NCBI RefSeq assembly: GCF_010730355.1
Contig: NZ_AP022576.1
Location: forward strand, 4,526,001 to 4,590,000
DNA: 64,000 nucleotides
From: Mycobacterium florentinum
Lineage (GTDB): Bacteria > Actinomycetota > Actinomycetes > Mycobacteriales > Mycobacteriaceae
Direction of reading: 5' to 3'
Shown: positions 14,645-50,870 of the stretch, one piece after another
Numbering within the stretch: the stretch's first letter is position 1
How the letters are laid out: each line of letters starts with the position of its first letter
The notes under the pieces: generated by a model
Told to the model about the DNA's origin: nothing
The model's input: the letters and a program-made list of their open reading frames with translations, nothing else
The model's database searches: none
Program-made: the position numbers and the translations under genes

Positions 14645-14778
14645 TAATCTAACATTCTCATAGGCTGTCGATCAATGGAATTTCGGTAAGCGTCTCGGTT
14701 AACGATATGACCTGGTAGTCATTGGTATTGCCCTCATCAGAGCAATCGTCGTTCTTCAATCAGGATAATACCATTCTC
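14645..14778 (-). promoter_or_regulatory. AT-rich control region with GAGAAT-type motifs upstream of amidohydrolase cluster
   Basis: Within the 275-base gap 14594-14868 the sequence is unusually AT-rich for this genome. A 15-base element at 14764-14778 (GATAATACCATTCTC) matches the GAGAATRNYATTCTC palindrome found upstream of several other catabolic genes here at about 12 of 15 positions. A half-site ACATTCTC lies at 14652-14659, beside a TAGAT-A-ATCTA dyad (14641-14651). These sites probably control the divergent minus-strand amidohydrolase operon. Confidence 0.45.
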
Positions 14779-14868
14779 GGCGCTCGTCGGAAGGTGGCTT
14801 CCGTGCCGTCGAGATTGCCTTGCCGCGGCCGGGCTCGCTAGGCGGTCATTACAGAGTGGGCGAACGTG

Positions 14869-15777
14869 TCACGCCGTCCGGCCGTCGTCGACGCCACCGA
14901 CGGTGACGCCGGCCGCCTTTTCGAACGGTTTGATGACGGTCGTGAAATCGGAGTCGGCGCCCTGGTCGAGCGCGGCCGCCTCCCAGAGCCGGCCGATGGT
15001 CTCGGCGATGTCGACCGGCACGCCGAGCGCCTTGGCTTCGTCGAGATAGAGCCGCACGTCCTTGACCATCAGGCCGGTGGCAAAGCCGTAGTCGAAGGTG
15101 CGGGGTAGCACCGCGCGCGGGAACTTGTCCCGACTGGCGCTCGTCGCGCCCGAGCCCGCATTGAGCACTTCGATCATCACGGCCGGGTCGAGACCGGCCT
15201 TGACGCCCATCACGACGACCTCTGACGTCGCGACCAACACGTTGGCCGCCAGGATGTTGTTGGCCAGCTTCATCGTCTGCGCCGAACCGGGTTTCGCTCC
15301 GATGTAGTACGGCCGGCCGATCGACTCGAGTACCGGCTGTATGACGTCGAACTCGCCGCGCGGACCGGAGACCATCAGCGCGAGCAGCCCTTTTTCCGCG
15401 CCGCCGACGCCGCCACTGACCGGGCTGTCGAGGGCGGCGATTCCTCGTTGGGCCAGCAGGTCATGGATGCGCACGGAGGTCCGGCTGCCCACGGTCGACA
15501 GGTCGACGTAACGCTTGACCCGGGAGCCCTCGATCACACCCGCGGCTCCCGTGGCGACCTCGAGCGACACCGCGGGTGACGGGAGGCTGGCCAGCACCGT
15601 CTCGGCGCGGTCCGCGACCTCTTTCGCCGATGACGCGGCCCGGGCCCCGAGCGAGACGATGCGGTCGAGTGTCGCGCCGCTCGTGTCGAAGGCGATGACG
15701 TCGTGGCCGTCGCCGATCAGGCGCCGTGCCATGGGAAAACCCATGTTTCCCAACCCGATAAACCCGATTTCGGACAC
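14869..15777 (-). CDS. 3-hydroxyisobutyrate dehydrogenase-like NAD(P)-dependent oxidoreductase
   Basis: 302 residues from GTG at 15775-15777 (VSEIGFIGLGNMG). The GFIGLGNMGFPMA Rossmann motif, DSPVSGG substrate loop and GAKPGSAQTMKLANN with its catalytic Lys are diagnostic of the 6-phosphogluconate/3-hydroxyisobutyrate dehydrogenase family. The longer frame upstream would overlap the next gene and has no support. It follows the carboxymuconolactone-decarboxylase-like gene by 5 bases, and that gene follows the aldehyde dehydrogenase by 22 bases, so the three form an operon that likely oxidises an alcohol through aldehyde to acid. Confidence 0.9.
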   Translation of the reverse strand: MSEIGFIGLGNMGFPMARRLIGDGHDVIAFDTSGATLDRIVSLGARAASSAKEVADRAETVLASLPSPAVSLEVATGAAGVIEGSRVKRYVDLSTVGSRTSVRIHDLLAQRGIAALDSPVSGGVGGAEKGLLALMVSGPRGEFDVIQPVLESIGRPYYIGAKPGSAQTMKLANNILAANVLVATSEVVVMGVKAGLDPAVMIEVLNAGSGATSASRDKFPRAVLPRTFDYGFATGLMVKDVRLYLDEAKALGVPVDIAETIGRLWEAAALDQGADSDFTTVIKPFEKAAGVTVGGVDDGRTA

Positions 15778-15782
15778 GATTG

Positions 15783-16163
15783 TCAGGCCTCGTCCAGTTC
15801 GGCGAACACCTCGCGGGCGATGCGGAAACTGTCCACAGCGGCCGGGACGCCCGCGTAGACGGCGACCTGCAAGAATATCTCGCAAATCTCTTCTCGGGTA
15901 ACGCCGTTGGTCAGCGCGCCCTTGATGTGCGTTCGTAATTCGTTCGGCCGGTTCAGGATTGGGATCATCGCCAGGTTCAGCATGCTACGCGTCTTGCGGG
16001 GCAAGCCGTCTCGGCCCCACACCGCGCCCCAGCAGTATTCGGTGACGAGATCTTGTAGGGGCGTGGTGAACTCGTCGGCATCGGCGAGCGCCCGGTTGAC
16101 GTACGCCTCGCCCAGCACCGCGGAGCGGATTTCGAGTCCCCGTTGATATGTTTCGCGATCCAA
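15783..16163 (-). CDS. Carboxymuconolactone decarboxylase (CMD) family protein
   Basis: 126 residues, the standard single-domain CMD length. RKTRSMLNLAMIPIL, ELRTHIKGALTNGVTREEI and FLQVAVYAGVPAAVDSFR follow the family pattern closely and resemble PcaC-type 4-carboxymuconolactone decarboxylases; the Cys of the AhpD-type C-x2-C pair is absent. True PcaC acts in the beta-ketoadipate pathway, but no other pathway genes are present here, so the substrate is probably a different lactone or beta-keto acid. Middle gene of the 14869-17610 operon. Confidence 0.85.
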   Translation of the reverse strand: MDRETYQRGLEIRSAVLGEAYVNRALADADEFTTPLQDLVTEYCWGAVWGRDGLPRKTRSMLNLAMIPILNRPNELRTHIKGALTNGVTREEICEIFLQVAVYAGVPAAVDSFRIAREVFAELDEA

Positions 16164-16185
16164 TGTCTTCTCCTTAACGACTGAG

Positions 16186-17610
16186 TTACAGACGTACGAC
16201 TACGGTCTTGGTGGCGGTGAACATGTCGAGGGCTTCGTAACCCTTCTCGCGGCCGTACCCGGATTTCTTGAAACCTCCGAACGGCAACTCGACCCCGCCG
16301 CCGGCGCCGTAGGTGTTGACGTATATCTGGCCCGCCCGGATCTCGGCCGCGAGCCGATGTGCGCGGGAGAGGTCGTTGGTCCACACCGCACCAAGCAACC
16401 CATAGTCCGTCCCATTGGCCAAGGCGATCGCCTCGTCCTCGCTGACGAACCTGTTCACGGTGAGCACCGGGCCGAAGATCTCCTCTTGGGCGATGGTCTC
16501 CGCGGGATCGACATCTGTGATGATCGTGGGGGCGAAGTACGCCCCGTCCGCCAGCTTCGGATCGTGCGGTGGCTCACCGCCGCACAGGATTTCGCCCTTG
16601 ACGTTGCCGGCAACCATCGATTCCACCCGCTGCTGCTGCTTGCGGGAGACCAGCGGCCCGAGATCAGGATCCTCGAGTCCCGGCCCGATCGTCGCCAATT
16701 GCAGCCGCTGGCAAACCATTTCGACCAATGTGTCGTGAATGGAATCGTGCACCAGCAGCCGCGAACCGGCCGAGCAGGTTTGACCGGCGTTCTGCAGGAT
16801 CGCCTTCGCGATCGACTCCGCCGCGCGTTCCAAATCCGCGTCGGGGAAGACGATCTGCGGGGATTTCCCACCCAGCTCCAAAATCGTCGGCGCGACCCGG
16901 TCGGCTGCGGCGTGGGCGATCAACGAACCGATCTGGGTCGATCCGACAAAACCCACATGGTCGACGCCCGGATGTGCCGCCAGGGCGGCCCCGGCCTCGG
17001 CGCCGATCCCGCTCACCACGTTGAACACCCCGGCCGGCAGGCCGGCTTCAATCGCGAGTCGGGCCAATTCGACTGCGGTGCGCGGTGTTTCATCGGCGGG
17101 TTTGGCCACCGAGCAATTGCCCACGGCGATCGCGGGCGCCACGGCGCGAGACAGCAGCTGCATCGGGTAGTTCCAGGCGACGATGTGCCCGGTGACACCG
17201 AGTGGCTCACGCCGGGTGTAGACGTGCAGATCAGTTGACAGCGGGATGGTTTGGCCATAGTACGAGTCGATCGCATGGCCGTAGAAGCGGAAGTAGCGTG
17301 CGGCCACGACGGTATCGGCGCGCGCCTGGGCCAGAGGTTTTCCGGTGTCCTCGCTTTCGATCCGGGCCAACCGCTCCTGGTTGTCGCCGATCAGATCCGC
17401 GATCCGCGTCAGGAGTGTCGCCCGCGCCTCCGGCGTGGTGTTGCGCCAGCTTTTCGATGCCGCCGCGGCGGCCCGGACCGCACGATCCACTTCTTCGCCA
17501 CCGCCGCGTGCCACCGGCCCGAGGGAGCGTCCCGTCGCGGGGTCGATGTTGTCGTAGACGTCTTTCGAGGGCACTGATTCGCCGTCGATGAATGACTCGG
17601 TGATCGTCAC
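16186..17610 (-). CDS. NAD(P)-dependent aldehyde dehydrogenase
   Basis: 474 residues, full length for the family. WNYPMQL holds the catalytic Asn, LELGGKSP the general-base Glu, and GQTCSAGSR the nucleophilic Cys (residue 279). IFGPVLTV and PFGGFKKSGYGRE are typical C-terminal motifs. It starts with GTG at 17608-17610. It is divergent from the TetR-type regulator gene, and the 60-base gap contains a putative operator (17650-17671) that could control both. It would oxidise an aldehyde to the acid with NAD(P). It also shows, intact, the architecture of the deleted aldehyde dehydrogenase remnant at 29683. Confidence 0.92.
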   Translation of the reverse strand: MTITESFIDGESVPSKDVYDNIDPATGRSLGPVARGGGEEVDRAVRAAAAASKSWRNTTPEARATLLTRIADLIGDNQERLARIESEDTGKPLAQARADTVVAARYFRFYGHAIDSYYGQTIPLSTDLHVYTRREPLGVTGHIVAWNYPMQLLSRAVAPAIAVGNCSVAKPADETPRTAVELARLAIEAGLPAGVFNVVSGIGAEAGAALAAHPGVDHVGFVGSTQIGSLIAHAAADRVAPTILELGGKSPQIVFPDADLERAAESIAKAILQNAGQTCSAGSRLLVHDSIHDTLVEMVCQRLQLATIGPGLEDPDLGPLVSRKQQQRVESMVAGNVKGEILCGGEPPHDPKLADGAYFAPTIITDVDPAETIAQEEIFGPVLTVNRFVSEDEAIALANGTDYGLLGAVWTNDLSRAHRLAAEIRAGQIYVNTYGAGGGVELPFGGFKKSGYGREKGYEALDMFTATKTVVVRL

Positions 17611-17649
17611 GGTAACCCCTTGGCTCGATTGGTCGTCCCAACGGTTATC

Positions 17650-17671
17650 TACACGTTAATGTATATTTCCG
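17650..17671 (+). promoter_or_regulatory. Putative TetR operator, copy 1
   Basis: This 22-base site begins TACACGTTAATGTATATT and has TACA-N6-TGTA arms. It matches the site at 19063-19084 (read on the minus strand) at 18 of 22 positions. Lying between the TetR gene and the divergent aldehyde dehydrogenase, it fits autoregulation. Confidence 0.6.
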
Positions 17672-18303
17672 TGGTCACGACAACCCGGCGTGGACGCCCG
17701 ACGCAGGCCGAAGCCAAGAAGCTGCAACAAAAGCTGCGCAACGCGGCCGTGGCGACCTTCGTCAAGCTCGGATATGACGGCGCCAGCATGGAAGCGATCG
17801 CCAAGGCGGCGGGCATCACCCGGCGGACGCTCTATGCGCGCTACCCCGACAAGCGGGCGGTTTTCCTCGATGTCATTCCCTGGGCGCTCACCCGCAGGAC
17901 GGAAGGTGAGGCCACCGAGGAATTCGACGACGGCGACCTGCGTGCGGCCCTGGTCGCGGTGGGCCGCGCCGGCCTCGCACGGGCGATCGATCCCGACATC
18001 GTGCGCCTGAAGCGGATCGCGATGAACGAGTCGGCACGGTTTCCCGAGTTCGCGGTCAGCGCCCACTCCATGACCTGGTCGGCCCGCCACCGACAGGTGA
18101 TGGAGCTGCTTCGTCGCCACCAAGACGCCGGAGCCATCGAGGTGGATGATCTCGAGTTGGCCGCAGGCCACTTCATCGCGGCGGTTGAACATCTGCCCGC
18201 GCGGCTCGCGGACAGCGGCATCTACCGCAGTCCAGAGGAAGAGGAGCGCCATTTGCAGCACGCCGTCGACCTTTTCCTGCGCGGCATCCTGCGTCGCGGC
18301 TGA
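17671..18303 (+). CDS. TetR-family transcriptional regulator
   Basis: About 210 residues from GTG at 17671. An ATG at 17659 lies inside the putative operator and GTG at 17671 abuts it, so a leaderless or near-leaderless start is likely. The helix-turn-helix spans about residues 20-60: GYDGASMEAIAKAAGITRRTLYARYPDKRAVF is the standard pattern, with ITRRTLYARY as recognition helix. The C-terminal ligand domain carries several Arg/His and ends in a helix FLRGILRRG, possibly the dimer face. It is followed by a hydrolase and the LuxE/LuxC-like pair, whose promoter region carries a matching operator. Confidence 0.85.
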   Translation: MVTTTRRGRPTQAEAKKLQQKLRNAAVATFVKLGYDGASMEAIAKAAGITRRTLYARYPDKRAVFLDVIPWALTRRTEGEATEEFDDGDLRAALVAVGRAGLARAIDPDIVRLKRIAMNESARFPEFAVSAHSMTWSARHRQVMELLRRHQDAGAIEVDDLELAAGHFIAAVEHLPARLADSGIYRSPEEEERHLQHAVDLFLRGILRRG

Positions 18304-18310
18304 ACTCGCG

Positions 18311-19078
18311 ATGGCTTGGCCTGGGCTGGTACTGGTGCACGGGGGAGCGCATGCCGCCGATTGCTGGGAACTCACGGTCGCCGAATTATCCCGTCAGGCA
18401 CCGGAATTGCGGGTCCTGGCGGTCGATCTGCCCGGCCGCGGTAGCAGGCCGGCGGATCTGACATCCGTCACCGTCGCCGATTGGGTGAACTCCGCTGTCG
18501 CCGATATCGATGCCGCCGGTCTCGATGACGTTGTGGTCGTTGGGCATTCGATGGGCGGGCTGACAGTGCCGGGAATCGTGGCGAAGCTCGGCGCCACCCG
18601 GGTGCGGGAGATGATCCTGCTGACCGCGTTCGTGCCGCCGCGGGGCTCGTCGGTGGTGGATACGCTGGGCGGGCCCCTGGCCCCATTGGCGCGTTCAGCG
18701 CGCCGAATCCATACGCCGCTCCCAATCCTGCGGGCCGCAGCACCTTTCGCGTTCTGCAATGGCATGACGCGTCAACAGCGCGCGCTCACCCGGTCGAGAT
18801 TGTGCATGGAATCGCCGAACGTCATTTTCGAACGGGCCGACCGCAGCGACCTACCCACCGAGGTGCCGCGGACGTGGATCATGACGCTGGCCGATCGAGC
18901 GTTGTCGCAGCGCCAGCAGCTCGGCGCGATCGAGGCCCTCGGTGGAGTCGACACGATGATCTGCGTCGATGCCTGCCATGACGTGATGTTCTCTCGCCCA
19001 CGCTGGTTGGCCGGCACCCTGGCCGACCGGTGCCGAGAGTATCGGTCTCGACCGCCCGACGTCGTTAATATACAGTAG
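18311..19078 (+). CDS. Alpha/beta hydrolase (esterase-like)
   Basis: 255 residues from ATG at 18311; longer upstream frames lie within the TetR gene. LVHGGAHAADCW is the oxyanion region, GHSMGGL the nucleophile elbow (Ser near residue 79), and CHDVMFSRP near the C-terminus gives the catalytic His. DLPGRGSRP is the beta4 loop. It resembles hydroxynitrile-lyase/methylesterase-like hydrolases. It starts 7 bases after the TetR stop, so the two are co-transcribed. Its last bases overlap the second TetR operator (19063-19084). Confidence 0.85.
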   Translation: MAWPGLVLVHGGAHAADCWELTVAELSRQAPELRVLAVDLPGRGSRPADLTSVTVADWVNSAVADIDAAGLDDVVVVGHSMGGLTVPGIVAKLGATRVREMILLTAFVPPRGSSVVDTLGGPLAPLARSARRIHTPLPILRAAAPFAFCNGMTRQQRALTRSRLCMESPNVIFERADRSDLPTEVPRTWIMTLADRALSQRQQLGAIEALGGVDTMICVDACHDVMFSRPRWLAGTLADRCREYRSRPPDVVNIQ

Positions 19079-19084
19079 CGTGTA
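19063..19084 (-). promoter_or_regulatory. Putative TetR operator, copy 2
   Basis: Read on the minus strand it begins TACACGCTACTGTATATT, matching the site at 17650-17671 at 18 of 22 positions. It lies 34 bases upstream of the LuxE-like gene start and overlaps the hydrolase stop. The same regulator probably controls an internal promoter for the LuxE/LuxC-like pair. Confidence 0.6.
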
Positions 19085-19117
19085 CTTAATGACGGTGCGG
19101 TCAGAGAGGAGTCACCG

Positions 19118-20458
19118 ATGACATCTGCGACCGAACGGCTGGTCCAGCTGGTCGGAGCCAGGGATTGCTTCGACATCGCGCCCGCCGAACTGCTGCCGGT
19201 GCAGCTGGAAGCGGCCAACGAGCGGCTGCAAAGCCAAACGGAGTGCAATCCGTTGTTGGCCAACCGCGCCGGCGCGGTCAAAGAGATCAAGCGGCCCGCC
19301 GATCTGGTGCCACTGCTGTTCGCGCACACCACCTACAAGACGTATGCGGAAGGCTGGCTCAGCGAGGGGCAGTGGGACCGGATGGGCAAGTGGCTGGCCA
19401 CCGTGTCCACCCGCGCGGTGGACGGCCTCGACACCGCCGGCGTGCAGACGCTCGATGACTGGATCAAGCAGCTGGAGACGGTCGGTCACTACCTCTCCTG
19501 CTCCAGCGGCACGACCGGCAAACCCGCCATGCTGTCCTGTACCGAGGGAGACGTCGAGCTGTCCGCGCGGATCAACATCGAGGCGCTGCTGTGGGCCACG
19601 GGCTTGACCCGCGGCGAAGACCGCAAATTCCTCGGCCTGGGGCCACAATTCGCCGCTCCGCGCGAGGACGCGATTCGCCAGGCGATGGTCGACTGCTTCT
19701 CGTCGCGATACCCGCCGTACCAATTCGGCGACGGTGAACCGATCACGGTCGGGTCGATGGTGGACATCATCACCCTGCGGCGCAAGCTCGCCGACGGCAC
19801 CGCACGCCCCAGCGAGATCGCGGAGTTCGAACGCATTGCCACGCAGCGGGCCAACGATATGGGCAACTCGGCGAAGAAGGCGGTCGATGCCGTGATCGAG
19901 GCCCGCGAGCTTCCGTTGCTGGGCGCCGGCATGTTCGCCACGCTTTATCAGATCGCCGAAGGCATCAACGCCAAGGGGCATGGCGGCGGCGACTTCAATC
20001 CCGACAATGCGCTGATGGTCGCCGGCGGCCTCAAAGGCGCTGCGCTACCGGAGAATTACCGCGAATACGTGCTGGAGACGTTCAACGTCGCCGAAGGGCG
20101 ACTCTTCCACGCGTACAGCATGCGCGAGATCAATGCGGTGTTCCCGTTGTGCTGTGTGCAGCGGTATCACATCTCGCCCTGGGTGATCCTGTTGCCGCTG
20201 GATACCGCCGGCGAGCAGCTGCTGGATACCTTCGACGGTGAGATCGAGTCTCGGGCAGCCTTTTTCGATGCATCGATCGAAGGCCGCTGGGGTGGAGTGA
20301 TCAGCGGTGACCGCGTCAGTGTCAGTTACGCGAAGTGCCGGTGCGGGCATCAGGGTCCGACGATAGGCCGTGAGATCACCCGGTACGCCGACCTGCCGGG
20401 CGGTGACAAGATCACCTGCGCCGGCAGCATCGACGCCTATGTGCGGGGTGTCGCATGA
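19118..20458 (+). CDS. LuxE-like acyl-activating (acyl-protein synthetase) enzyme
   Basis: 446 residues. SCSSGTTGKPAML (near residues 126-137) is the ATP-binding P-loop of adenylate-forming enzymes. The overall order, with KTYAEGWL early, no typical FadD GRxK-D lid motif, and adjacency to a LuxC homologue, fits the LuxE acyl-protein synthetase family. A Cys-rich tail (KCRCGHQGPTIGR) may bind metal or act as acyl acceptor. LuxE activates a fatty acid as acyl-AMP and hands it to LuxC for reduction. The start has AGAGAGGA 10 bases upstream. It overlaps the LuxC-like gene by 4 bases (ATGA), supporting a complex. Confidence 0.8.
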   Translation: MTSATERLVQLVGARDCFDIAPAELLPVQLEAANERLQSQTECNPLLANRAGAVKEIKRPADLVPLLFAHTTYKTYAEGWLSEGQWDRMGKWLATVSTRAVDGLDTAGVQTLDDWIKQLETVGHYLSCSSGTTGKPAMLSCTEGDVELSARINIEALLWATGLTRGEDRKFLGLGPQFAAPREDAIRQAMVDCFSSRYPPYQFGDGEPITVGSMVDIITLRRKLADGTARPSEIAEFERIATQRANDMGNSAKKAVDAVIEARELPLLGAGMFATLYQIAEGINAKGHGGGDFNPDNALMVAGGLKGAALPENYREYVLETFNVAEGRLFHAYSMREINAVFPLCCVQRYHISPWVILLPLDTAGEQLLDTFDGEIESRAAFFDASIEGRWGGVISGDRVSVSYAKCRCGHQGPTIGREITRYADLPGGDKITCAGSIDAYVRGVA

Positions 20459-21840
20459 CCACGCTGTCGGCACCGCATTTCGTGCAGGGAGTGTTGGTCG
20501 AAGGGGACGCAATTCGCCACCGGTCACGCGACTTGGGTGCTGATTTCACCACTCCCGCAATTGATCTCGATGCGCTTGTGTTGCCGCGCTCGCGGTTGCC
20601 GCCGCTGCTCGACGTGACGCTGGCCGAGATCGTCGACTACCTGGTCGAGACGGGCGAACGCCTGCGGCTGGATCGCAACCCGCACCTGCAGGAATGCCTG
20701 GAGCTGATCGCGGCCACGAATCCGTTACCCCGGCGGGTGGTGGAGAACTTGTACCGCCAGGCGCCGTATTTTCTGACCAGGCCGCTGCTCGAGAGTATCG
20801 TCGATGCGAACTTCGCGAACCGCGCGGCGCTCGACGGCTGGGTCGAGCGCGTCGACGGCCACGGCAACAAGGGGGCGGTGCGTGCGTTTCCGCCGCGCAT
20901 GGTCCACATGCTGGCGGGCAATGCCCCGTCGGGATGTGTGTCGTCGATCGCGCAAGGCGCGTTGGTCAAGGCGGTCAACCTGTTCAAGATGCCCTCGAGT
21001 GACCCGTTCACGACGGTGGCGGTGTTGCGCACGATGGCCGAGGTCGATCCGAGGCACCCAGTGGTGCAGTCGATGTCGGCGGTGTACTGGCAAGGCGGGG
21101 ACGCGGTTATCGAACGTACCCTGTACCGCCCCCAGTACTTCGACAAGATCGTCGCCTGGGGAGGCGGCGACGCGATCAACAACGTGATCCAATACCTCGG
21201 ACCGGGGATTCAGCTGATCTCGTTCGACCCGAAATCGTCGATCTCGATGATCGGCCGCGAAGTTTTCGGCTCGCCGGACCGCGTCGCCGAGGTCGCTGAT
21301 CGGCTGGCCGCCGACACCACGGTGTTCAACCAGGAGGCGTGCCTGGCCAGTCGCTACGCCTTCGTGGAAGGCCAACGGCCCCAAGTGGAATCGTTCTGCG
21401 CAGCACTGGCGCAGCGGCTGAACGTCGACCGTGACTTCGGCTCGGCCGAGGGCCCGGCACTGCCGGCGGAAGTGCGCGAGGAGATTCAGGTGGCCGAGGC
21501 GATGGGCGATCTCAAAGTGTGGGGCGGCTTCGACGGGCGCGGCTTGGTGATCCTGTCGGAGCGGCCGGTGGAGTTTCAGCCCAGCCACAAGACGTCCAAC
21601 GTCGTGCTGGTGGACTCCCTCGACGACGCCGTCCGCTACGTCAACGTCGCCACCCAGACCATCGGGGTATATCCCGACGAGCGCAAGACCCAGCTGCGCG
21701 ATCGGCTGGCGAGCCAAGGGGCACAACGGTTGTGCCGCTTGGGAACCGCAAACGCCCATGTGCTGGGAAGCCCGCACGACGCGATGTACCCACTGCAGCG
21801 ATTCGTGCACTGGATGGGTGACGACGACATCACCCTGTGA
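20455..21840 (+). CDS. LuxC-like acyl-CoA/acyl-enzyme reductase
   Basis: 461 residues, close to the about 480 of LuxC. PPRMVHMLAGNAPSGCV is the conserved cofactor-binding segment, ISFDPKSSISMIG follows, and TTVFNQEACLASRYAF carries the expected catalytic Cys (about residue 296). LuxC reduces an activated acyl group to the aldehyde with NADPH. Paired with the LuxE-like gene it would make a fatty-acid or steroid-acid reductase that delivers an aldehyde. The window has no luciferase alpha/beta pair next to it; the nearest luciferase-fold protein is the F420-type enzyme at 2354, so luminescence is not implied. Strong 3' neighbour: nitroreductase. Confidence 0.88.
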   Translation: MTTLSAPHFVQGVLVEGDAIRHRSRDLGADFTTPAIDLDALVLPRSRLPPLLDVTLAEIVDYLVETGERLRLDRNPHLQECLELIAATNPLPRRVVENLYRQAPYFLTRPLLESIVDANFANRAALDGWVERVDGHGNKGAVRAFPPRMVHMLAGNAPSGCVSSIAQGALVKAVNLFKMPSSDPFTTVAVLRTMAEVDPRHPVVQSMSAVYWQGGDAVIERTLYRPQYFDKIVAWGGGDAINNVIQYLGPGIQLISFDPKSSISMIGREVFGSPDRVAEVADRLAADTTVFNQEACLASRYAFVEGQRPQVESFCAALAQRLNVDRDFGSAEGPALPAEVREEIQVAEAMGDLKVWGGFDGRGLVILSERPVEFQPSHKTSNVVLVDSLDDAVRYVNVATQTIGVYPDERKTQLRDRLASQGAQRLCRLGTANAHVLGSPHDAMYPLQRFVHWMGDDDITL

Positions 21841-21900
21841 TCTGTGATGCCCGCTGCACGCTAGGTTGCATCAGAAGGCCCGTGCCGAAAAGGAGTGACC

Positions 21901-22569
21901 ATGACGGGAGCGAGCAGCGACGTCTGGGAAGTGATGTCGACGGCGCGGACGATCCGGCGCTTCACCGACGAGCCGGTCGACGACTTCACCCTGGCGCAGT
22001 GCCTGGAAGCGGCGAGGTGGGCCCCGTCGGGCGCCAACGCGCAGGGCTGGCGTTTCGTCGTGTTGCGCTCACCCGAGCAGCGGGCCGTCGTGGCCGAGGC
22101 CGCGGCCCACGCCCTGGAAGTGATCGAGCCGGTCTATGGCATGACCCGCCCCGCCGACGACGACAACAGCCGCCGCGCTCGTACCTACCGCGCGACTTAC
22201 GAATTGCATGACCGGGCCGGTGAATTCACCTCGGTCTTGTTCGCGCAACAGCATTACCCGACGGCATCCGAACTGTTGCTCGGCGGATCGATCTTTCCCG
22301 CGATGCAGAACTTCCTGCTCGCCGCGCGCGCTCAGGGCCTCGGGGCCTGCATGACCAGCTGGGCCTCCTACGGCGGCGAGCAGTTGCTGCGGCAAGCCAT
22401 CGGGGTGCCCGACGGCTGGTTGGTCGCCGGCCACATCGTGGTCGGCTGGCCCGAGGGCAAGCACGGCCCCCTTCGTCGCCGCCCGCTCGCTGAGTTCGTC
22501 AATCTCGACCGCTGGGACGAGTCTGCCACCGGCCTTTTTGCAGCTCCGACCGGTCGGCCGGTGAACTAA
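21901..22569 (+). CDS. Nitroreductase-family FMN oxidoreductase
   Basis: 222 residues from ATG at 21901 (AAAAGGAG at 21887-21894 gives a better spacing than GTG at 21895). TARTIRRFTDEPVDD and ARWAPSGANAQGWRFVV are the FMN-binding N-terminal motifs, and LGACMTSWASYGGEQ is the central FMN/dimer segment. Nitroreductase-family proteins reduce nitro, quinone or enone groups with NAD(P)H; some act as flavin-dependent dehydrogenases in steroid degradation. It is separated from the LuxC-like gene by 60 bases and may be part of the same transcript. A strong hairpin follows. Confidence 0.9.
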   Translation: MTGASSDVWEVMSTARTIRRFTDEPVDDFTLAQCLEAARWAPSGANAQGWRFVVLRSPEQRAVVAEAAAHALEVIEPVYGMTRPADDDNSRRARTYRATYELHDRAGEFTSVLFAQQHYPTASELLLGGSIFPAMQNFLLAARAQGLGACMTSWASYGGEQLLRQAIGVPDGWLVAGHIVVGWPEGKHGPLRRRPLAEFVNLDRWDESATGLFAAPTGRPVN

Positions 22570-22593
22570 GGCACCGGGCCACCGAGCACGCTC

Positions 22594-22635
22594 CCGGCTG
22601 GCCGGGCGCTCGGACCTTTGAGCCCGGCCAGCCGG
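22594..22635 (+). terminator. GC-rich stem-loop, likely transcription terminator
   Basis: Perfect 14-base inverted repeat (CCGGCTGGCCGGGC at 22594-22607 pairs with 22622-22635) around a 14-base loop, 24 bases after the nitroreductase stop. There is no U-tract, as is common for mycobacterial intrinsic terminators. The GGCCGGGCGCTC stretch also occurs twice as a direct repeat. Confidence 0.55.
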
Positions 22636-22693
22636 GCGCTCAGCACCTATCGATACGTCATACGCGGAATGCGAGATTATTACTTCCGGAAGG

Positions 22694-22708
22694 GAGAATG
22701 GTATTCTC
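22694..22708 (+). promoter_or_regulatory. GAGAATGGTATTCTC operator upstream of fadE pair
   Basis: A near-perfect 15-base palindrome, 31 bases before the ATG at 22740. Its right half contains TATTCT, a possible -10 hexamer, so a bound repressor would block the promoter. Best match is 50856-50870 (one base different). See the finding on the shared motif. Confidence 0.6.
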
Positions 22709-22739: not shown

Positions 22740-23738
22740 ATGCTGTTGGAGTTCGATGCTGATCAGCGACTGTGGCAGGACACGGTGCGTGACGCCGTCG
22801 CAAAGCAATGTCCGCCCTCGCTGGTGCGGAGCGTGGCCGAGGATGGCGTAGACCCGAGCCCACTGTGGAAGTCGTATGTCGACCAGGGCTGGACCGAGCT
22901 GAACGAATCGGATAGCGCTGTGGAGCTGGCCATCGTGCTCGAAGAGCTAGGCCGCGCAACCGATCCCACGCCGTTCCTGGCGACGATGAGCCAGTTCGCT
23001 CCGCTTGCCGGGGACCGATTCGACCCACACCAGTCCGGTACCGCGGTGTACAGCGGTGTTACGGCGCACCGCGACGCAGACGGGTGGGTGCTGGACGGAA
23101 CGGCACGCCACGTCCTGGACGGCGATCGCGCCGACCGGCTGGCGGTCGTGACCGACGCGGGCGTGTTCCTCGTCGAGTCCGGTCAGGTCTCCGCCCGCCG
23201 CGCGTCGGTGTTCGACCCGGTTTTGCACGTCGCGGACCTGTCGTTCGCCAGGGTCCGGGTGCCCGACACCGAACGACTGACCGTCGACGCGGAACGCGCT
23301 CGCCATCTCGCGTTGACCGGCATGGCCATCACGATGGTCGGCGCCTGCCAGCGCATCCTCGACCTGGTGCTCGAGCACGTGAAAAGCCGTCAGCAGTTCG
23401 GTGTCGCCATCGGCTCCTTCCAGGCCGTGCAGCATAAGGCCGCCGACATGCACGTCGCCGTCGAACGCGCCAGGGCGCTGGCCTATTTCGCGGCGCTGAC
23501 GATCGCCGCCGACGATCCCCGCCGCCGGCTGGCGGCCGCGATGGCCAAGGCGTCGGCGGGGGAGTGCCAGTCGCTGGTGTTCCGGCACGGCCTACAGCTG
23601 CACGGCGCAATGGGCTTCACGTGGGAGAACGACCTGCAGTTCGCGCTGAAACGGGCCAAAGCCGGCGAGCTGATGCTCGGTGGTGCCGCCGAGCACCGGG
23701 CGCGGATCGCGGAGGAATACCGTGCAGCTGACTTTTGA
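22740..23738 (+). CDS. Acyl-CoA dehydrogenase, smaller subunit (FadE-like)
   Basis: 332 residues, short for an acyl-CoA dehydrogenase (usually about 380-400). N-terminal helices and the C-terminal four-helix bundle are recognisable (KSRQQFGVAIGSFQAVQHKAAD; HGLQLHGAMGFTWENDLQFALKRAK), while the middle beta domain is reduced. Short, diverged FadE chains like this pair with a full-length chain as alpha2-beta2 heterotetramers in mycobacterial steroid side-chain oxidation. The downstream FadE overlaps it by 17 bases, fitting such a complex. The GAGAATGGTATTCTC palindrome precedes it. Confidence 0.88.
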   Translation: MLLEFDADQRLWQDTVRDAVAKQCPPSLVRSVAEDGVDPSPLWKSYVDQGWTELNESDSAVELAIVLEELGRATDPTPFLATMSQFAPLAGDRFDPHQSGTAVYSGVTAHRDADGWVLDGTARHVLDGDRADRLAVVTDAGVFLVESGQVSARRASVFDPVLHVADLSFARVRVPDTERLTVDAERARHLALTGMAITMVGACQRILDLVLEHVKSRQQFGVAIGSFQAVQHKAADMHVAVERARALAYFAALTIAADDPRRRLAAAMAKASAGECQSLVFRHGLQLHGAMGFTWENDLQFALKRAKAGELMLGGAAEHRARIAEEYRAADF

Positions 23739-24894
23739 TTCCGACGTCGAGGAATTCCGGGCGGAGTTCTCGGCCTTCCTCGACGAAAACCTGCCTCCCG
23801 CAAGCGAAACGCTCGAGCGTCCCCGCTCGGTGTCGCACATGCCGCAGTGGGCACGCGACTGGCAGCGACTGCTGTTCGACAACGGCTGGCTGCTGCCCGG
23901 CCAGCCGCCGGAATTCGGCGGACGCAATGCGACGGTCCTTCAGCAGTTCGTCTACATGCAGGAACTCAGTCGCCGCCGGATCTATCACAGCTTCAACCCG
24001 CAGGGCGTGAATATCGTTGGTGCCTCACTGTTGTCGTTCGGCAACGACGAGCAGAAGCGGCGTTGGGCGGTGCCGATCCTGCGCGCCGAGCTCACCGCGT
24101 CGCTCGGCATGAGCGAACCCAGCGCGGGTTCCGATCTGGCGTCGCTGCGTACTCGCGCCGTGCTGGACGGCGATCACTTTGTGATCAACGGCCAGAAGGT
24201 GTGGACCTCGGGCGCCCACGATGCCGACGTTTTGTTGACGTTCGTCCGGACGAATCCAGATGTGCCGAAGCACAAGGGAATCAGCGTGCTGATCGTCCCC
24301 ACCGATACCCCGGGTCTGGTGCGCCGGCCGTTCCCGTCGATCGTCGCGGCCGACGATCTGGATTTCAATGAGGTCTTTTTCACCGACGTGCGGGTGCCGG
24401 TGGAGAACCTGGTCGGGGAGGTCGACCAGGGCTGGAAGGTGGCCAACGGGTCGCTCGGACACGAGCGCACGATGATGTGGCTGGGCTTCGCGGATCGAAT
24501 CGACAATATGATCGACGACTTCCACCCCGGCACCGAGGTTGAGCGCGACCAGTACGCCAGCACGATCATGGACCGACAGGCGCTGCGCCTGCTTGGGTCG
24601 GCGGCCTTGGCCCGCGCCTCGCGTGGCGAAGACGACGTGGCCGCGATCTCGGTGCTCAAACTGCTCGGGTCCGAGGCCGAGTTGCGGGGGATGGAGCTCG
24701 CGTTCACGTCCGCGGGATCCGACGGGCTCGTTCACCCGGGCCAGACCGGGCCGTATGCGCACATGAACCTCGACCACTACTTCGCCAGCTGGTTCGAGCG
24801 TTATGCGCGAAGCTTTTCCGGCACCATCGCCGGCGGCACCTCCGAGATCCAGCGCAACATCATCGCCCAGCGCGTGCTTGGCCTTCCGCGCTGA
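23722..24894 (+). CDS. Acyl-CoA dehydrogenase, larger subunit (FadE-like)
   Basis: 390 residues from GTG at 23722, which has GGAGGA 5 bases upstream; the gene overlaps the previous FadE by 17 bases. LGMSEPSAGSDLASL is the acyl-CoA dehydrogenase signature, FVINGQKVWTSGA the beta-domain FAD contact, DQGWKVANGSLGHERTMMW the helix entering the C-terminal bundle, and GGTSEIQRNIIAQRVLGL the usual C-terminal motif. It oxidises acyl-CoA to enoyl-CoA with electron transfer flavoprotein as acceptor. Intact paralogue of the pseudogene at 3311-4111; together they suggest a duplicated catabolic step. Confidence 0.9.
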   Translation: MQLTFDSDVEEFRAEFSAFLDENLPPASETLERPRSVSHMPQWARDWQRLLFDNGWLLPGQPPEFGGRNATVLQQFVYMQELSRRRIYHSFNPQGVNIVGASLLSFGNDEQKRRWAVPILRAELTASLGMSEPSAGSDLASLRTRAVLDGDHFVINGQKVWTSGAHDADVLLTFVRTNPDVPKHKGISVLIVPTDTPGLVRRPFPSIVAADDLDFNEVFFTDVRVPVENLVGEVDQGWKVANGSLGHERTMMWLGFADRIDNMIDDFHPGTEVERDQYASTIMDRQALRLLGSAALARASRGEDDVAAISVLKLLGSEAELRGMELAFTSAGSDGLVHPGQTGPYAHMNLDHYFASWFERYARSFSGTIAGGTSEIQRNIIAQRVLGLPR

Positions 24895-28433: not shown

Positions 28434-28447
28434 GGTGCTGTCTCCCT

Positions 28448-28648
28448 TTAGGTTTCGTCCGTGATCATGATCGCCTGCTCCGGGCACGAGTGCGCGGCCT
28501 CGCGAACCTGGTCTTCCTGGTCGGCCGGCACCACCTCGTTGACCGCCGACGAACTGCCGTCAATATCGCTGAGCTGGAACGAATCCGGCGCAATCATCGC
28601 GCACAGGGTGTGGCCCTGGCAGCGTTCTGAATCAACCCAGACCTTCAC
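28448..28648 (-). CDS. P450-partner ferredoxin (3Fe-4S type)
   Basis: 66 residues from GTG at 28646-28648, with AGGAGGAG 5-12 bases upstream. Ligands C10 and C16 (RCQGHTLC) and the Cys of HSCPEQA give C-x5-C...CP, with His in the centre position instead of a fourth Cys, as in 3Fe-4S ferredoxins that serve CYPs. Located directly upstream of the P450 gene. The reductase is not in this operon; the NuoF-like gene at 9226 is the only candidate in the window. Confidence 0.92.
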   Translation of the reverse strand: MKVWVDSERCQGHTLCAMIAPDSFQLSDIDGSSSAVNEVVPADQEDQVREAAHSCPEQAIMITDET

Positions 28649-28702
28649 GATGTCTCCTCCTGTGGGCTGTCGTGTGGTTGGCGCTGCGGACGCCGACGTC
28701 GC

Positions 28703-29404: not shown

Positions 29405-29464
29405 GCCAAGGCCCCGGGGCCAAATGCGGGCGTCTCAGTCACAAAGAATCTCCTTCGCAATTAT

Positions 29465-29479
29465 GAGAACATTACTCTC
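29465..29479 (-). promoter_or_regulatory. GAGAATRNYATTCTC-type operator upstream of SDR-ferredoxin-P450 operon
   Basis: GAGAACATTACTCTC differs from the 50856-50870 site mainly by symmetric T-to-C changes at two positions, so the dyad is largely kept. It is placed suitably for control of the minus-strand operon starting at 29404. Confidence 0.5.
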
Positions 29480-29641: not shown

Positions 29642-29656
29642 GAGAATGAAATTTTC
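29642..29656 (+). promoter_or_regulatory. GAGAATRNYATTCTC-type operator upstream of CoA transferase operon
   Basis: GAGAATGAAATTTTC matches the consensus at about 12 of 15 positions and lies 26 bases upstream of the ATG at 29683. Together with 29465-29479 it places a copy of the motif before each of the two divergent operons. Confidence 0.45.
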
Positions 29657-32346: not shown

Positions 32347-32355
32347 GGGCTGCCA

Positions 32356-33201: not shown

Positions 33202-33212
33202 GGAGGGTAGAC

Positions 33213-43187: not shown

Positions 43188-43353
43188 TTGGGCCTGAGCT
43201 CAAACCTTTCATCGGGCAGCTGCCTTCATAGCTCTTACATGCGGAAATACTCACTCGTCGGGAAACGGGACGTTGTAGCTTTCGGGGCGGTCCGGCGCGG
43301 ACAGCCGTTGTTGCTCAGGCGATCTTCTCCAACCAGGAGAATTTTCTTTTCGG

Positions 43354-43773
43354 GTGTGGCAAAGTAATCGGGTGCGATTAATCGTGGCCCTATTTGCCGC
43401 GTTGCTCGGCGCCGGTGTCCTGGCGGCGCCGCCGTCGTCGGCCGGCCCCACCGTCTGCGACTATCCCGACTGCACGCCCGGCATCATGGGGCATCAGGTC
43501 CTCGGAGCGCCGTGTGACAACACCACCTATTACGCCTTCGGTGTCACGGATGGTTATGTCTCCTTCGGCTCGCAGCCGGGACGGCTGATGTTCTGCGGTT
43601 CGCCGAGGAGATATCAGCCGCGATGGTTCCGATCACCGCCAATGGCGGGAGTCAAGGACGAAGGCGCCAACTGCCAGAATTACCAGAACTACGTTGCGCA
43701 GTCGCCCGATGGCCTTTTCCTGATCTGTTTTGCCCATGACGGCATTTTGAGCTGGATCCGCGGCGACACGTAA
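43354..43773 (+). CDS. Small secreted hypothetical protein
   Basis: 139 residues from GTG at 43354 (GTG at 43372 is an alternative). Signal peptide to about residue 30 (VRLIVALFAALLGAGVLAAP). The mature chain has six cysteines (VCDYPDCTPG, APCDN, MFCG, NCQNY, ICFAHDG), probably disulfide-bonded. AGGAGA at 43335-43340 serves as ribosome site for 43354 with long spacing. It is convergent with the TetR gene at 43777. I do not recognise a family. Confidence 0.75.
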   Translation: MWQSNRVRLIVALFAALLGAGVLAAPPSSAGPTVCDYPDCTPGIMGHQVLGAPCDNTTYYAFGVTDGYVSFGSQPGRLMFCGSPRRYQPRWFRSPPMAGVKDEGANCQNYQNYVAQSPDGLFLICFAHDGILSWIRGDT

Positions 43774-46963: not shown

Positions 46964-46981
46964 TGCGCACGAAGCGGTGGT

Positions 46982-48465: not shown

Positions 48466-49167
48466 ATGACATCGGCCCGCAGGATCGGGGCGCCGGACGC
48501 CAAGAACCGCGGCCTGCTGCTCGATGCGGCCGAACAGTTGATGATCGAGGAGGGCTACGCCGCCGTCACGTCGCGCCGTCTGGCGAACAAGGCGGGGCTG
48601 AAGCCTCAGCTGGTGCACTACTACTTCCGCACCATGGAGGAGTTGTTCCTCGAGGTCTTCCGTCGCCGCGGCGAAGAAGCGCTCGAGGTGCACGCTCAGT
48701 TGATGCAGTCGCCGCAGCCGCTATGGGCGGTATGGAGGTTCGGCACCGACCCCGCATTCACCCGGATTTCCATGGAATTCATGGCGCTGGCCAATCACCG
48801 CAAAGACATGCGAGCCGAAATCGCTTATTACGCGGAACGTTTCCGCGAAGAACAACGCCAAGCGGTGACGGCTGCGCTGGAGCGCTACGGCGTGGCACGC
48901 GAAGAGATGCCGCCGGTGGTGGTTGCCGTTCTCATGTCCAGCCTGTCGCGATTTCTCGTGCTCGAGCAGGCGGTCGGTATTTCGGCCGGTCATGCCGAAA
49001 CCGTGGCATTAGTCGAGAGTCACCTGCGTCGCCTGGAAGGCGAGCCACAGCCCTTTGCGGGGGTGCCGGAGACCTGGGTGGTTCACCAGTTGCGCAGCGA
49101 GCAAAGCACGCCCTTGGGGCCATCCTTGGACACGACGACGGCTCCGTCCACCGCCAGATCGCAGTGA
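48466..49167 (+). CDS. TetR-family transcriptional regulator
   Basis: 233 residues. The helix-turn-helix is EEGYAAVTSRRLANKAGLKPQLVHYYFRTMEELF, about residues 27-60, with the aromatic-rich recognition helix LVHYYF. The ligand-binding half has MEFMALANHRKDMRAEIAYYAERF. The last about 28 residues overlap the convergent secreted-protein gene (49083-49167) and are low-complexity Ser/Thr, so the end may be a recent read-through extension. It probably regulates the adjacent P450; co-regulation of the downstream minus-strand genes is possible. Confidence 0.88.
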   Translation: MTSARRIGAPDAKNRGLLLDAAEQLMIEEGYAAVTSRRLANKAGLKPQLVHYYFRTMEELFLEVFRRRGEEALEVHAQLMQSPQPLWAVWRFGTDPAFTRISMEFMALANHRKDMRAEIAYYAERFREEQRQAVTAALERYGVAREEMPPVVVAVLMSSLSRFLVLEQAVGISAGHAETVALVESHLRRLEGEPQPFAGVPETWVVHQLRSEQSTPLGPSLDTTTAPSTARSQ

Positions 49168-49529
49168 AGCCCCGGTGTGCCGGGCTCCGTGCCCGTGCTC
49201 GCCACCACCATCGCGTAAGCGTCGGGGTTCGACATGTCCAGATCGAAGCTCCACGGCTTGCCCGGGCCGAGATCGACGTCGACGTGCGGTGTGAACGCGT
49301 ACGGGTTGTGGCTGTAATCGGAGAATCTTGCCGGCTGCTGGTCCAGGTAATAGATGTCGGTGTAGATCGGATGCTGTGCGGTGACGGTGTACTTGACGTG
49401 ATGCATGACCACCGGGTCGGGGTCGGCATGGGCCAGCGGAGTGCTCACGACTAAACCGACGCCCACCAACAGCTCTGCCACGGTCAGCGCGGATCCGATG
49501 CCCATTAGTCTCTTTACGCTGGTACTCAT
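49083..49529 (-). CDS. Secreted/membrane-anchored MmpS-like hypothetical protein
   Basis: 148 residues from ATG at 49527-49529 (MSTSVKRLMGIGSALTVAEL). A hydrophobic segment to residue 34 ending AHA may be a signal peptide or anchor. The mature part (VVMHHVKYTVTAQHPIYTDIYYLDQQPA, then GKPWSFDLDMSNPDAYAMVVAS and DLAVDGAVVVSKDG...VLCSL) resembles the beta-sandwich of MmpS-type accessory proteins of lipid exporters, with two cysteines. No MmpL partner is in the window. It overlaps the enoyl-CoA hydratase gene by 4 bases and the convergent TetR gene by 85 bases. Confidence 0.65.
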   Translation of the reverse strand: MSTSVKRLMGIGSALTVAELLVGVGLVVSTPLAHADPDPVVMHHVKYTVTAQHPIYTDIYYLDQQPARFSDYSHNPYAFTPHVDVDLGPGKPWSFDLDMSNPDAYAMVVASTGTEPGTPGLHCDLAVDGAVVVSKDGPKGVLCSLRNW

Positions 49530-50272
49530 GTCCCTCCTCCGGCGGCCTTGCGCGGCTTGGTGTTTCGGTTCATTACCCGCTCTGCGGCCTGCCAGTGCGC
49601 GTCGGCAACCCACAGTCGTGCAAAGGATGCTATCGCCTCCTCAGCCGAAACACCGCTGATTACGCGTTTTATCTCGGCGGCCGGCTGGTGGGCGAGCGAG
49701 GTGGCAATCGAACGCCAGCCCTCTTCGAACGAGGCGCGCGGTAACACCACGTCCACCAACCCCATCCGCTCGGCCTCGGCGGCGTCGACGGCTTTTCCGC
49801 TGCCCGCCAGTAGAAGTGCTCTGCCCTTTCCGACCAGCGCGGCCAGTCTCTCCGCGCCGCCCCAGGCCGGCATGATCTCCAGCGTCGCCTGATTGAACGC
49901 AATCTTGATGTCGCTTGCCGCAACCCGGATGTCGGCGGCAACGGCCACTTCGGCGCCACCGCCGAAGGCGTGGCCGTTGAGTGCGGCGATCACCGGTGCG
50001 GGAAAGTTCGCCAGCTGGTCGCAGATGGCCCGCATCCGCCTTGCCATCGCGGTTGCTTCCTCCAGGGTCCGCAGCGCACTGAGCTCCTTGAGGTCACCGC
50101 CGGACACGAAAGCCTTGTCGCCGGCGCCCCTGATCACCAGGGCCTGGGCGCCCGCTGCCGCATCGAGCGCCTTCTCCAACTGGTCCATGGTGTCGAGCGC
50201 GATCGCGTTGCGCGCGTGGGGGCGGTCGATGGTGAGTACCGCCAACCCGTTGTCGAGCTCCAAATCCAGCAT
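49526..50272 (-). CDS. Enoyl-CoA hydratase/isomerase family protein
   Basis: 248 residues from ATG at 50270-50272, with GAGGAGCAAAG just upstream; the longer frame is unsupported. Crotonase fold: IDRPHARNAIALDTM near the N-terminus, AFVSGGDLKELS is the first oxyanion loop, and LNGHAFGGGAEVAVAADIRVA the second. MPAWGGAERLAALVG holds the helix that normally carries catalytic Glu; here Ala/Trp-Gly-Gly occupies it, so the acid/base may be Asp or Glu elsewhere, or the enzyme may be an isomerase. Two operator-like sites (50299-50335) lie upstream. Translationally coupled to the MmpS-like gene. Confidence 0.88.
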   Translation of the reverse strand: MLDLELDNGLAVLTIDRPHARNAIALDTMDQLEKALDAAAGAQALVIRGAGDKAFVSGGDLKELSALRTLEEATAMARRMRAICDQLANFPAPVIAALNGHAFGGGAEVAVAADIRVAASDIKIAFNQATLEIMPAWGGAERLAALVGKGRALLLAGSGKAVDAAEAERMGLVDVVLPRASFEEGWRSIATSLAHQPAAEIKRVISGVSAEEAIASFARLWVADAHWQAAERVMNRNTKPRKAAGGGT

Positions 50273-50298
50273 CCGTCTTTGCTCCTCGAAGAGCCGTC

Positions 50299-50335
50299 GA
50301 TATTGGCATTCTCGTGCGGCGAGAATAGCATCATC
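50299..50335. promoter_or_regulatory. Two GAGAATRNYATTCTC-type operators between hydratase and lipoprotein genes
   Basis: Site 1 (50299-50313, minus-strand reading) and site 2 (50321-50335, plus-strand reading) each match the consensus at about 13 of 15 positions. Their inner halves form a perfect 7-base inverted repeat (50308-50326). They sit in a divergent region and could control both the minus-strand hydratase and the plus-strand lipoprotein. Confidence 0.5.
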
Positions 50336-50381
50336 GCTGCAGGCTGAATGGGTTTGTTCATCAACGATATGAGGTGGCCCA

Positions 50382-50804
50382 GTGCAGAATCGATTCGTCG
50401 CGGCGACCGCTGCGGTGCTCGCTGTGGTCGGCCTCGGGGCCTGCACGTCGCGACCGGCATCCCAACTGTCCAGCTCGGCGTCGGTGACCGTCAACGGTGA
50501 CGACGCGAGTTTCCACATCGTCAAATGCAGTCAACGTGAGTGGACTCGGACGATCGATATCGGCGGCGAGTTCGCCGGAGCCAGTTTGATCATCGACGAA
50601 GGCGCGCAACCGGCGTCGGCCGAGGCGGTCCGCATTCGAAATCTGGGTGGGTTCACCGGGATGTACGCCCGCGGCGACGGCAGCCCCGCCGAGATGAGCA
50701 TGAGCGGGGACAAATTCACCATCACCGGCACCGCCAACGGATTCAAGACCGACAAGCCCAACGAAGCCGCGTCGGCCAAGTTCAAGATCATCGCTACCTG
50801 CTGA
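50382..50804 (+). CDS. LpqH-like (19-kDa antigen family) lipoprotein
   Basis: 140 residues from GTG at 50382. Lipobox VGLGAC places the lipidated Cys at residue 21. The mature chain ASVTVNGDDASFHIVKCSQ, DIGGEFAGASLII and GTANGFKTDKPNEAASAKFKI matches the LpqH beta-sandwich family. Members are surface lipoproteins that bind hydrophobic ligands and signal through TLR2 in host infection. Its location between lipid-catabolism genes fits a carrier role here. Two operator-like sites lie just upstream. Confidence 0.88.
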   Translation: MQNRFVAATAAVLAVVGLGACTSRPASQLSSSASVTVNGDDASFHIVKCSQREWTRTIDIGGEFAGASLIIDEGAQPASAEAVRIRNLGGFTGMYARGDGSPAEMSMSGDKFTITGTANGFKTDKPNEAASAKFKIIATC

Positions 50805-50855
50805 CCGCGAGTGGCGCTCACCACTGGGGGGGCACGTTGCGGCGACGACCCTCGA

Positions 50856-50870
50856 GAGAATAGTATTCTC
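50856..50870 (+). promoter_or_regulatory. GAGAATAGTATTCTC operator upstream of amidohydrolase-FadD operon
   Basis: A 15-base palindrome whose right half contains TATTCT, a plausible -10 hexamer, ending 22 bases before the ATG at 50893. It is the clearest copy of the motif together with 22694-22708. Confidence 0.6.

Follow-up and report, generated by a model that had tools for sequence, protein, structure and literature searches.

Several operons in a 64,000-nucleotide stretch of the Mycobacterium florentinum chromosome (contig NZ_AP022576.1, positions 4,526,001 to 4,590,000; hereafter the window) are preceded by variants of one short palindrome, and we asked whether these scattered genes answer to a single regulator and, if so, to which one. 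A preliminary description of the window had proposed that the palindrome marks a local catabolic regulon, governed by one of the TetR proteins encoded there or by one from outside. We find that the palindrome is real. Its excess over chance, its intergenic placement, its conservation at orthologous operons and its co-occurrence with one regulator together lend strong support to that proposal of a catabolic regulon with one putative operator. The operator very probably belongs to TetR103, a TetR-family protein encoded 21 kb to the left of the window, which we predict to be autoregulated and to repress catabolic and Mce operons. Coordinates of up to five digits refer to the window, and longer ones to the chromosome.

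A palindrome enriched in intergenic DNA

The palindrome is best described by its arms, GAGAAT-N3-ATTCTC. When spacers of 0 to 9 bases were scanned, the family arose only at a spacer of 3, which gave 9 window matches with up to two mismatches; any other spacer gave at most 3. Exact copies carry diverse centres, such as CTG, CAT and GAG, and the RNY centre that had been written into the motif is not part of it. With that original full pattern and up to three mismatches, the window held 12 matches against 2.82 in shuffled sequence, and none of 100 shuffles reached 12. The copies listed in the preliminary description all exist: those at 22694 and 50856 are exact, those at 14764 and 29642 have one arm mismatch, and those at 29465, 50299 and 50321 have two.

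The chromosome, at 6,219,859 bases, contains 7 exact copies where 0.117 are expected under a first-order Markov model trained on the 248-kb stretch around the window. They lie at 3880406, 4462674, 4504035, 4504890, 4512251 and, in the window, 22694 and 50856; six of the seven fall within 115 kb, two of these inside the window. One-mismatch copies are near chance over the whole genome (6 observed, 4.6 expected), whereas the 115-kb cluster holds 3 of the 6 against an expected 0.085. Two-mismatch copies are at background genome-wide (79 seen, 83 expected), and we therefore give them weight only where they are clustered or conserved. The set of sites spans 4.462 to 4.577 Mb, well past the window, with a remote copy at 3.880 Mb. 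From the 92 places in the genome we inspected all exact and one-mismatch copies and the two-mismatch copies up to 3.13 Mb; for the one-mismatch copies at 1970992 and 5333470, inspection was confined to their neighbours.

Exact and one-mismatch copies number 13 in all; 12 of these are intergenic, and the thirteenth, at 816124, lies inside a gene. Between 4.40 and 4.648 Mb all 16 copies with up to two mismatches are intergenic, though 91.7% of that DNA is called coding. The intergenic placement noted originally thus stands, whereas "mostly divergent" overstates the arrangement: among the seven main window sites four lie between divergent genes, and these four occupy two of the five intergenic regions. 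We took the copies at 816124 and at 4622801, which is outside the cluster, as chance occurrences. A reversed-pattern control gave no match in 41 relatives and one match each in 6 of 248 genus genomes.

Conservation was examined in stretches, rather than whole genomes, of four relatives (G180, G006, G020 and G016). A site with up to two mismatches was found in all four upstream of the orthologues of FadD, TetR103, the CMD-Rieske operon, the CYP150-type P450, the amidohydrolase operon, the pair of acyl-CoA dehydrogenase (FadE) genes, the enoyl-CoA hydratase and the amidohydrolase-FadD operon. These sites frequently differ in their centre between genomes; in the three genomes that are less closely related, the orthologous proteins behind them are 67-93% identical to those here. 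Conservation was partial for a hydrolase (2 of the 2 genomes with an orthologue), MeaB (1 of 4) and two short-chain dehydrogenase/reductase (SDR) genes, gene 159 (3 of 3 true orthologues) and gene 102 (2 of 4). Upstream of genes 4474054/4474859 the sites here and in G180 have three mismatches and that in G006 has two; G020 has none. We also took one exact site from each of 46 other genomes: 36 of the 46 precede orthologues of operons that bear a site here, 9 of them at the remote operon of 3880406, and 10 do not.

TetR103 as the candidate regulator

TetR103 (4504117-4504767, minus strand) is flanked by the exact sites at 4504035 and 4504890. A candidate operator therefore stands at its own promoter as well as at several unlinked operons. 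Together with the findings below, this is good evidence for the suggestion that the regulator may lie outside the window. The called protein of 216 amino acids matches Pfam TetR_N (PF00440) with 31.2 bits against a cut-off of 24. The model of a 98% identical orthologue (L133) is all-helical, with ten helices, a pLDDT of 77 and a recognition helix at residues 62-68, and its fold matches FadR, YvdT and EthR2 with TM scores by query of 0.53-0.76. The TetR_N domain and this modelled all-helical fold with a C-terminal regulatory domain place TetR103 in the TetR family. NCBIfam gives it no name above cut-off (the best, ScbR, scores 37.2 of 150 bits), and the names among 120 listed relatives are generic (TetR or AcrR family regulator) except for one YvdT-like entry. 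Many of these relatives have 238-239 amino acids; because the start codon of TetR103 is consequently uncertain, distances to its start are approximate. The proteins of M. ahvazicum, M. triplex and M. montefiorense are 97-98% identical to it, and a search of PLSDB at E 1e-15 returned no plasmid-borne relatives.

Among 41 relatives, an exact motif is present in 20 of 25 genus members (the M. florentinum genome included) and in none of 16 genomes of other genera, and TetR103 orthologues of at least 78% identity occur in the same 20 genomes. In 248 genus genomes, where the protein search covered TetR103 and TetR117, both motif and TetR103 are present in 202 and neither in 39, so that 241 agree; 4 have TetR103 only (G072, G105, G194 and G222) and 3 the motif only (G060, G086 and G164). 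The discordant genomes were picked by eye from those listed. Of the genomes scored as having TetR103 only, two retain a site with a single mismatch upstream of the gene, namely G072 (TetR103 identity 79%) and G194 (64%), and G105 has a three-mismatch remnant there. In G222, residue R59 just before the modelled recognition helix is changed to G, and no site with up to two mismatches lies in the 20 kb around the gene.

The site at the regulator's own gene is conserved. We examined 80 named loci, the best among 404 relatives. All of them except that of Mycobacterium tilburgii have an exact site no more than 400 bp upstream of TetR103 (79 of 80), and 77 have a site with up to two mismatches no more than 250 bp downstream. 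An alignment of 79 loci has the centre of the palindrome 94% conserved, against 81% for other noncoding columns; the arms are at 100% by construction, the locus without a site (L148) having been left out.

Co-occurrence alone does not single out TetR103; its own-promoter site does so together with covariation of the operator. G016 and G022 each have a second copy of TetR103, which is preceded, at nearly the same place (about -144), by GAGAAG-N3-CTTCTC, in which the change is symmetric. This comparison drew on a set of 130 loci that includes repeats of the same genomes. A paralogous TetR clade, of 32-37% identity and with a related helix, has the motif GGTAAY-N2-C-RTTCTC 24-94 bp upstream in 10 of the 13 homologues examined, and this motif has one half-site in common with the TetR103 palindrome. 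For L070 and two "other" homologues of the paralogue set, the strand on which they were read was wrong or unresolved; the 130-locus set has L070 right.

Promoter architecture and proposed mode of action

In the region between TetR103 and the divergent fadE (gene 104), the palindrome contains a hexamer that TTGTAA precedes by 17 bases in 77 of 79 loci; this inner hexamer reads TACTAT in 65 of the 79 and TAGTAT in 11. Since the palindrome arms fix the T...AT of this hexamer, only its central A and the TTGTAA count as independent support for a promoter. It had been suggested that TATTCT in the right half of the palindrome acts as a -10 element that binding would block. Repression by blocking of the -10 element is supported at this one promoter, to judge from its sequence, with the difference that the hexamer there is TA(C/G)TAT and not TATTCT. 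A weaker copy of the palindrome, 22 bp away, lies over TTGTAA (3 mismatches in 56 loci, 4 in 22 and 8 in 1). Such tandem partners, at 20-23 bp, accompany 5 of 14 sites and form 4 pairs, where mononucleotide shuffles of the flanks gave a mean of 0.023 and a maximum of 1; the test used 14 of the 16 sites, 4526117 and 4622801 being omitted.

The -10 hexamer, of the form TAnnnT, inside the copy at the fadE promoter is also what would be expected if the palindrome were a sigma-factor promoter element. This is extremely improbable: the arms are two-fold symmetric, they also occur in tandem and they are nearly confined to genomes that bear TetR103, and the exact copies with the centre CTG or GAG contain no TAnnnT on either strand.

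We propose that a TetR103 dimer binds each palindrome and covers the promoter, so that the TetR103 gene itself, the divergently transcribed fadE and some dozen further operons would be repressed. Release would follow when the C-terminal domain binds an intermediate of the compound being degraded, plausibly a CoA thioester. Where sites are 21-22 bp apart, that is two helical turns, two dimers probably lie side by side. The same operator and regulator might instead serve activation or a mixed role, to which the position of some sites at least 100 bp upstream of the called start codon would be suited. We consider this unlikely, since the amidohydrolase-FadD site lies 22-25 bp from the start codon and the fadE site covers the -10-like hexamer, both of which are typical of repression.

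Evidence against TetR103 and other candidate regulators

A number of observations weigh against the assignment of the operator to TetR103 or against the extent of its regulon. G164, an assembly that is 93% complete with 7% contamination and 700 contigs, has 8 sites, and its TetR103 homologue is only 34% identical; G060 has one site and no TetR103 was found in it; and G086 has one site and only a 71%-identical fragment of 52 residues at a contig end. Conversely, in G042 and G079 the helix of TetR103 is unchanged and no site with up to two mismatches lies in the 20 kb around the gene. The amidohydrolase and FadE targets co-occur with the motif about as well, as does TetR181, so that the co-occurrence of TetR103 and motif is in part that of the whole cluster; the targets are present in all 20 motif genomes, with the qualification that the amidohydrolase match in G008, at 54%, is probably a paralogue. 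We accordingly rejected co-occurrence as sole proof of the regulator. The genomes are related, and their counts are therefore not independent; G016 and G022, which carry the second TetR103 copy, may themselves be close relatives. In three of the 13 homologues examined the paralogue motif was not seen, one having a different helix and two being read on an unresolved strand. The site at the divergent fadE is present in G180 and G006 and absent before the best matches in G020 and G016. Finally, the secondary sites of the tandem arrangements are weak, and a -35-like hexamer coincides in part with one of them.

Among the other regulators, TetR147 (17659-18303, plus strand), which lies in the window, was excluded because it occurs in 4 of the 41 relatives (M. 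florentinum itself and three at 63-64% identity), against 20 with the motif. TetR117 (4517287) was rejected as a required regulator, being missing from 12 of the motif-bearing genomes among the 248; 8 of these 12 have 4-8 sites, and all 8 have TetR103. The operator might nevertheless belong to TetR117 or to TetR181 (48466-49167, plus strand, in the window), given that both are present in all 20 motif-bearing relatives, that a TetR181-like gene adjoins TetR103 in G072 and G222, and that TetR117 lies within an operon downstream of a site. We regard this as quite improbable. Besides the absences of TetR117, TetR181 is more divergent (58-85% identity), lacks a motif before its own start and is represented by a 55% homologue in one genome that has no motif, and the covariation of the operator tracks TetR103 and its paralogues and not these two proteins. 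The cluster also encodes TetR 91, TetR 175, IclR 76 and MarR 100, which were outside the regulator searches.

Comparison with known regulators

KstR represses Mce genes, and an outside, widely conserved regulator of this kind might bind the palindrome in place of TetR103. The KstR site TAGAAC-N2-GTTCTA (TnnAACnnGTTnnA) has an AGAA core in common with the motif, and KstR is reported to repress the adjoining fadE (PMC1995591). The spacing differs, however, being N2 for KstR and N3 for GAGAAT-N3-ATTCTC, and KstR is said to be strongly conserved across mycobacteria, whereas 43 of the 248 genus genomes have no exact copy, 39 of which also have no TetR103. Binding by KstR or its like is thus very unlikely.

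TetR103 would resemble KstR in its manner of working. KstR is reported to be an autoregulated TetR repressor encoded beside fadE; its short palindrome stands at scattered promoters, twice in one region, its operator lies partly over a -10 element, and dozens of lipid-metabolism genes are under its control (PMC1995591). In contrast, similarity between the proteins is remote (KstR chains match at E 0.003-0.007 over about 97 residues), and TetR103 is absent from 42 of the 248 genus genomes at the search threshold. TetR103 would thus work like KstR yet is not KstR, sequence and operator both failing to agree, and the two target sets presumably differ.

FadR (Bacillus, Thermus) and FasR (M. tuberculosis) are acyl-CoA-binding TetR regulators. 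Bacillus halodurans FadR (5gp9/5gpa) is the best match of TetR103 in both sequence and fold, and FasR is among the matches, whereas the NCBIfam scores are far below cut-off (29 of 330 bits for FasR, 26.9 of 200 for FadR). BkaR and the 30 TetR regulators that were motif-scanned by Balhana et al. offer another parallel in that a TetR protein with a divergent neighbour is joined to a palindrome inferred from conservation; those 30 all have M. tuberculosis Rv numbers (PMC4482099). The CYP150-type P450 and ferredoxin genes of the M. marinum region Mmar_4716-4736 resemble those here, while the word TetR has 0 occurrences in the main text of that report (PMC6237146). A text search of a literature library for the operator words GAGAATNNNATTCTC and AGAATNNNATTCT and two exact words found none of them, and no published account of the TetR103 regulator was found among the literature matches listed.

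Predicted targets within the window

The first main site in the window, GATAATACCATTCTC (14764-14778, one mismatch), lies upstream of a predicted target operon on the minus strand (14587-11039). The operon encodes two amidohydrolase-type proteins (13496-14587, from the Pfam run, and 12321-13466, named by reading the sequence), and a Rieske-type ferredoxin (11921-12253) and an alpha/beta hydrolase (11039-11905), both also named by reading. In all four compared genomes the orthologue is preceded by a counterpart of this site with no more than one mismatch, exact in G020 and G016. The exact site GAGAATGGTATTCTC (22694-22708) lies 32-46 bp upstream of the FadE pair, a predicted target (22740-24894, plus strand; Pfam run on the first), and is exact upstream of the orthologue in all four.

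Two sites occupy a divergent region, GAGAACATTACTCTC (29465-29479, two mismatches), with a weak tandem partner of three mismatches 21 bp away (29444-29458), and GAGAATGAAATTTTC (29642-29656, one mismatch). To the left is a predicted target operon of SDR, ferredoxin and P450 genes (27069-29404, minus strand; the best PDB relative of the P450 is P450cin), and to the right one of a 99-amino-acid open reading frame (ORF), a CoA transferase, a YrbE pair and six Mce genes (29683-41044, plus strand; read from the sequence). A one-mismatch counterpart of the 29642 site precedes the SDR orthologue in three of the four genomes, the best match in G020 being only 34% identical, and the CoA-transferase orthologue only in G180; conservation of the 29465 site was scored jointly with it.

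The site GAGAATTTTCTTTTC (43337-43351, two mismatches) is a weak candidate operator upstream of a small secreted-protein gene (43384-43773). Two-mismatch counterparts precede the orthologue in 3 of the 4 genomes, and the compared stretches of the fourth hold no orthologue. The tandem pair GATATTGGCATTCTC (50299-50313) and GAGAATAGCATCATC (50321-50335), 22 bp apart and each with two mismatches, lies between the predicted targets enoyl-CoA hydratase (49526-50272, minus strand; read from the sequence) and a Mycobacterium 19-kDa-type lipoprotein (PF05481; 50382-50804, plus strand); two-mismatch sites are found upstream of the hydratase orthologue in all four genomes. The exact site GAGAATAGTATTCTC (50856-50870) stands 22 bp before the start codon of a predicted target operon for an Amidohydro_2 protein, FadD and a 207-amino-acid protein without a Pfam match (50893-54217, plus strand). 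It is exact in all four genomes, and in 8 loci with this target the distance to the start codon is 22-25 bp.

A weaker version reported at 116-130 does exist, at 117-131 (GAGAATTACGTTATC, two mismatches), and is identical in G180 and common to that genome only; upstream of the orthologue in G006, G020 and G016 the best words have 3-4 mismatches. It is probably not a conserved operator, and we left it out of the regulon.

Some loci differ in the layout of this region. G016 and loci L047, L082 and L100 have a single operator common to the amidohydrolase operon and the FadE pair; here and in G180 and G006, variable cargo of 3.7-8 kb separates the two operons, with an operator kept at each end (14764-22708 here).

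The wider regulon and a possible pathway

When the operons downstream of sites are counted, the predicted regulon comprises about 55 genes of catabolism and Mce import. Amidohydro_2, FadE, the 19-kDa lipoprotein, CMD, the acyl-CoA mutase N-terminal domain, MeaB, an MhpA-type hydroxylase and an MhpB-type dioxygenase are above curated cut-offs. For a KstD-like protein the only family passed is one with the name "FAD-binding protein", and the matches of the Rieske protein and of FadD to known families stay below cut-off. PDB searches gave one P450 as CYP150A6-like (gene 119, 519 bits) and another as P450cin-like; the other target names come from reading the sequence. Membership of the mutase and meta-cleavage operons is tentative because their own sites are weak (3 mismatches).

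The remote operon L026 (3875671-3880379) is a conserved predicted target; its genes, for a phosphotransferase-like protein, an SDR, a FadE and another TetR, follow an exact site that ends up 26 bp away from the start codon. Near 1963466 (L028), a two-mismatch site precedes a gene whose G018 orthologue (L039, 76% identity) has an exact site; this may be a further target.

M. marinum CYP150A5 is reported to convert beta-ionone to 4-hydroxy-beta-ionone in a whole-cell system (PMC6237146), and by analogy this is a hint at isoprenoid chemistry, no more. The regulon presumably serves one common substrate. It is possible, at rather less than even chances in our estimation, that TetR103 is the master switch of an undescribed and largely complete pathway with its own Mce import, degrading a cyclic, possibly isoprenoid compound by P450s, a Rieske oxygenase and acyl-CoA steps, and perhaps also by KstD-like aromatisation together with meta-cleavage and by a B12-dependent acyl-CoA mutase and its chaperone MeaB, with a single operator governing the whole. 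This would be a second KstR-like system, parallel to cholesterol catabolism, present in most sampled genus genomes and missing from others. The outcome is a defined operator, a candidate regulator and a target list for a large orphan catabolic cluster that includes an Mce importer. A compound that releases TetR103 would indicate the substrate of the whole cluster, and a binding screen is thus a direct way to the pathway.

Some further features of the region and genome deserve mention. A paralogous set (L029, 5325001-5342000) has a TetR paralogue of 34% identity with a GGTAAC-N3-ATTCTC word upstream, an amidohydrolase 57% identical to that at 50893, and a FadE pair with the one-mismatch site at 5333470. 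Inside the variable cargo, two adjoining ORFs (19118-21840) read like a LuxE/LuxC-type acyl-protein synthetase and acyl-CoA reductase. The 99-amino-acid ORF before the CoA transferase (29683-29982) reads like an aldehyde dehydrogenase minus most of its middle, and two short FadE-like pieces at 3311-4111, resembling a FadE gene of the cluster on reading, are probably a remnant.

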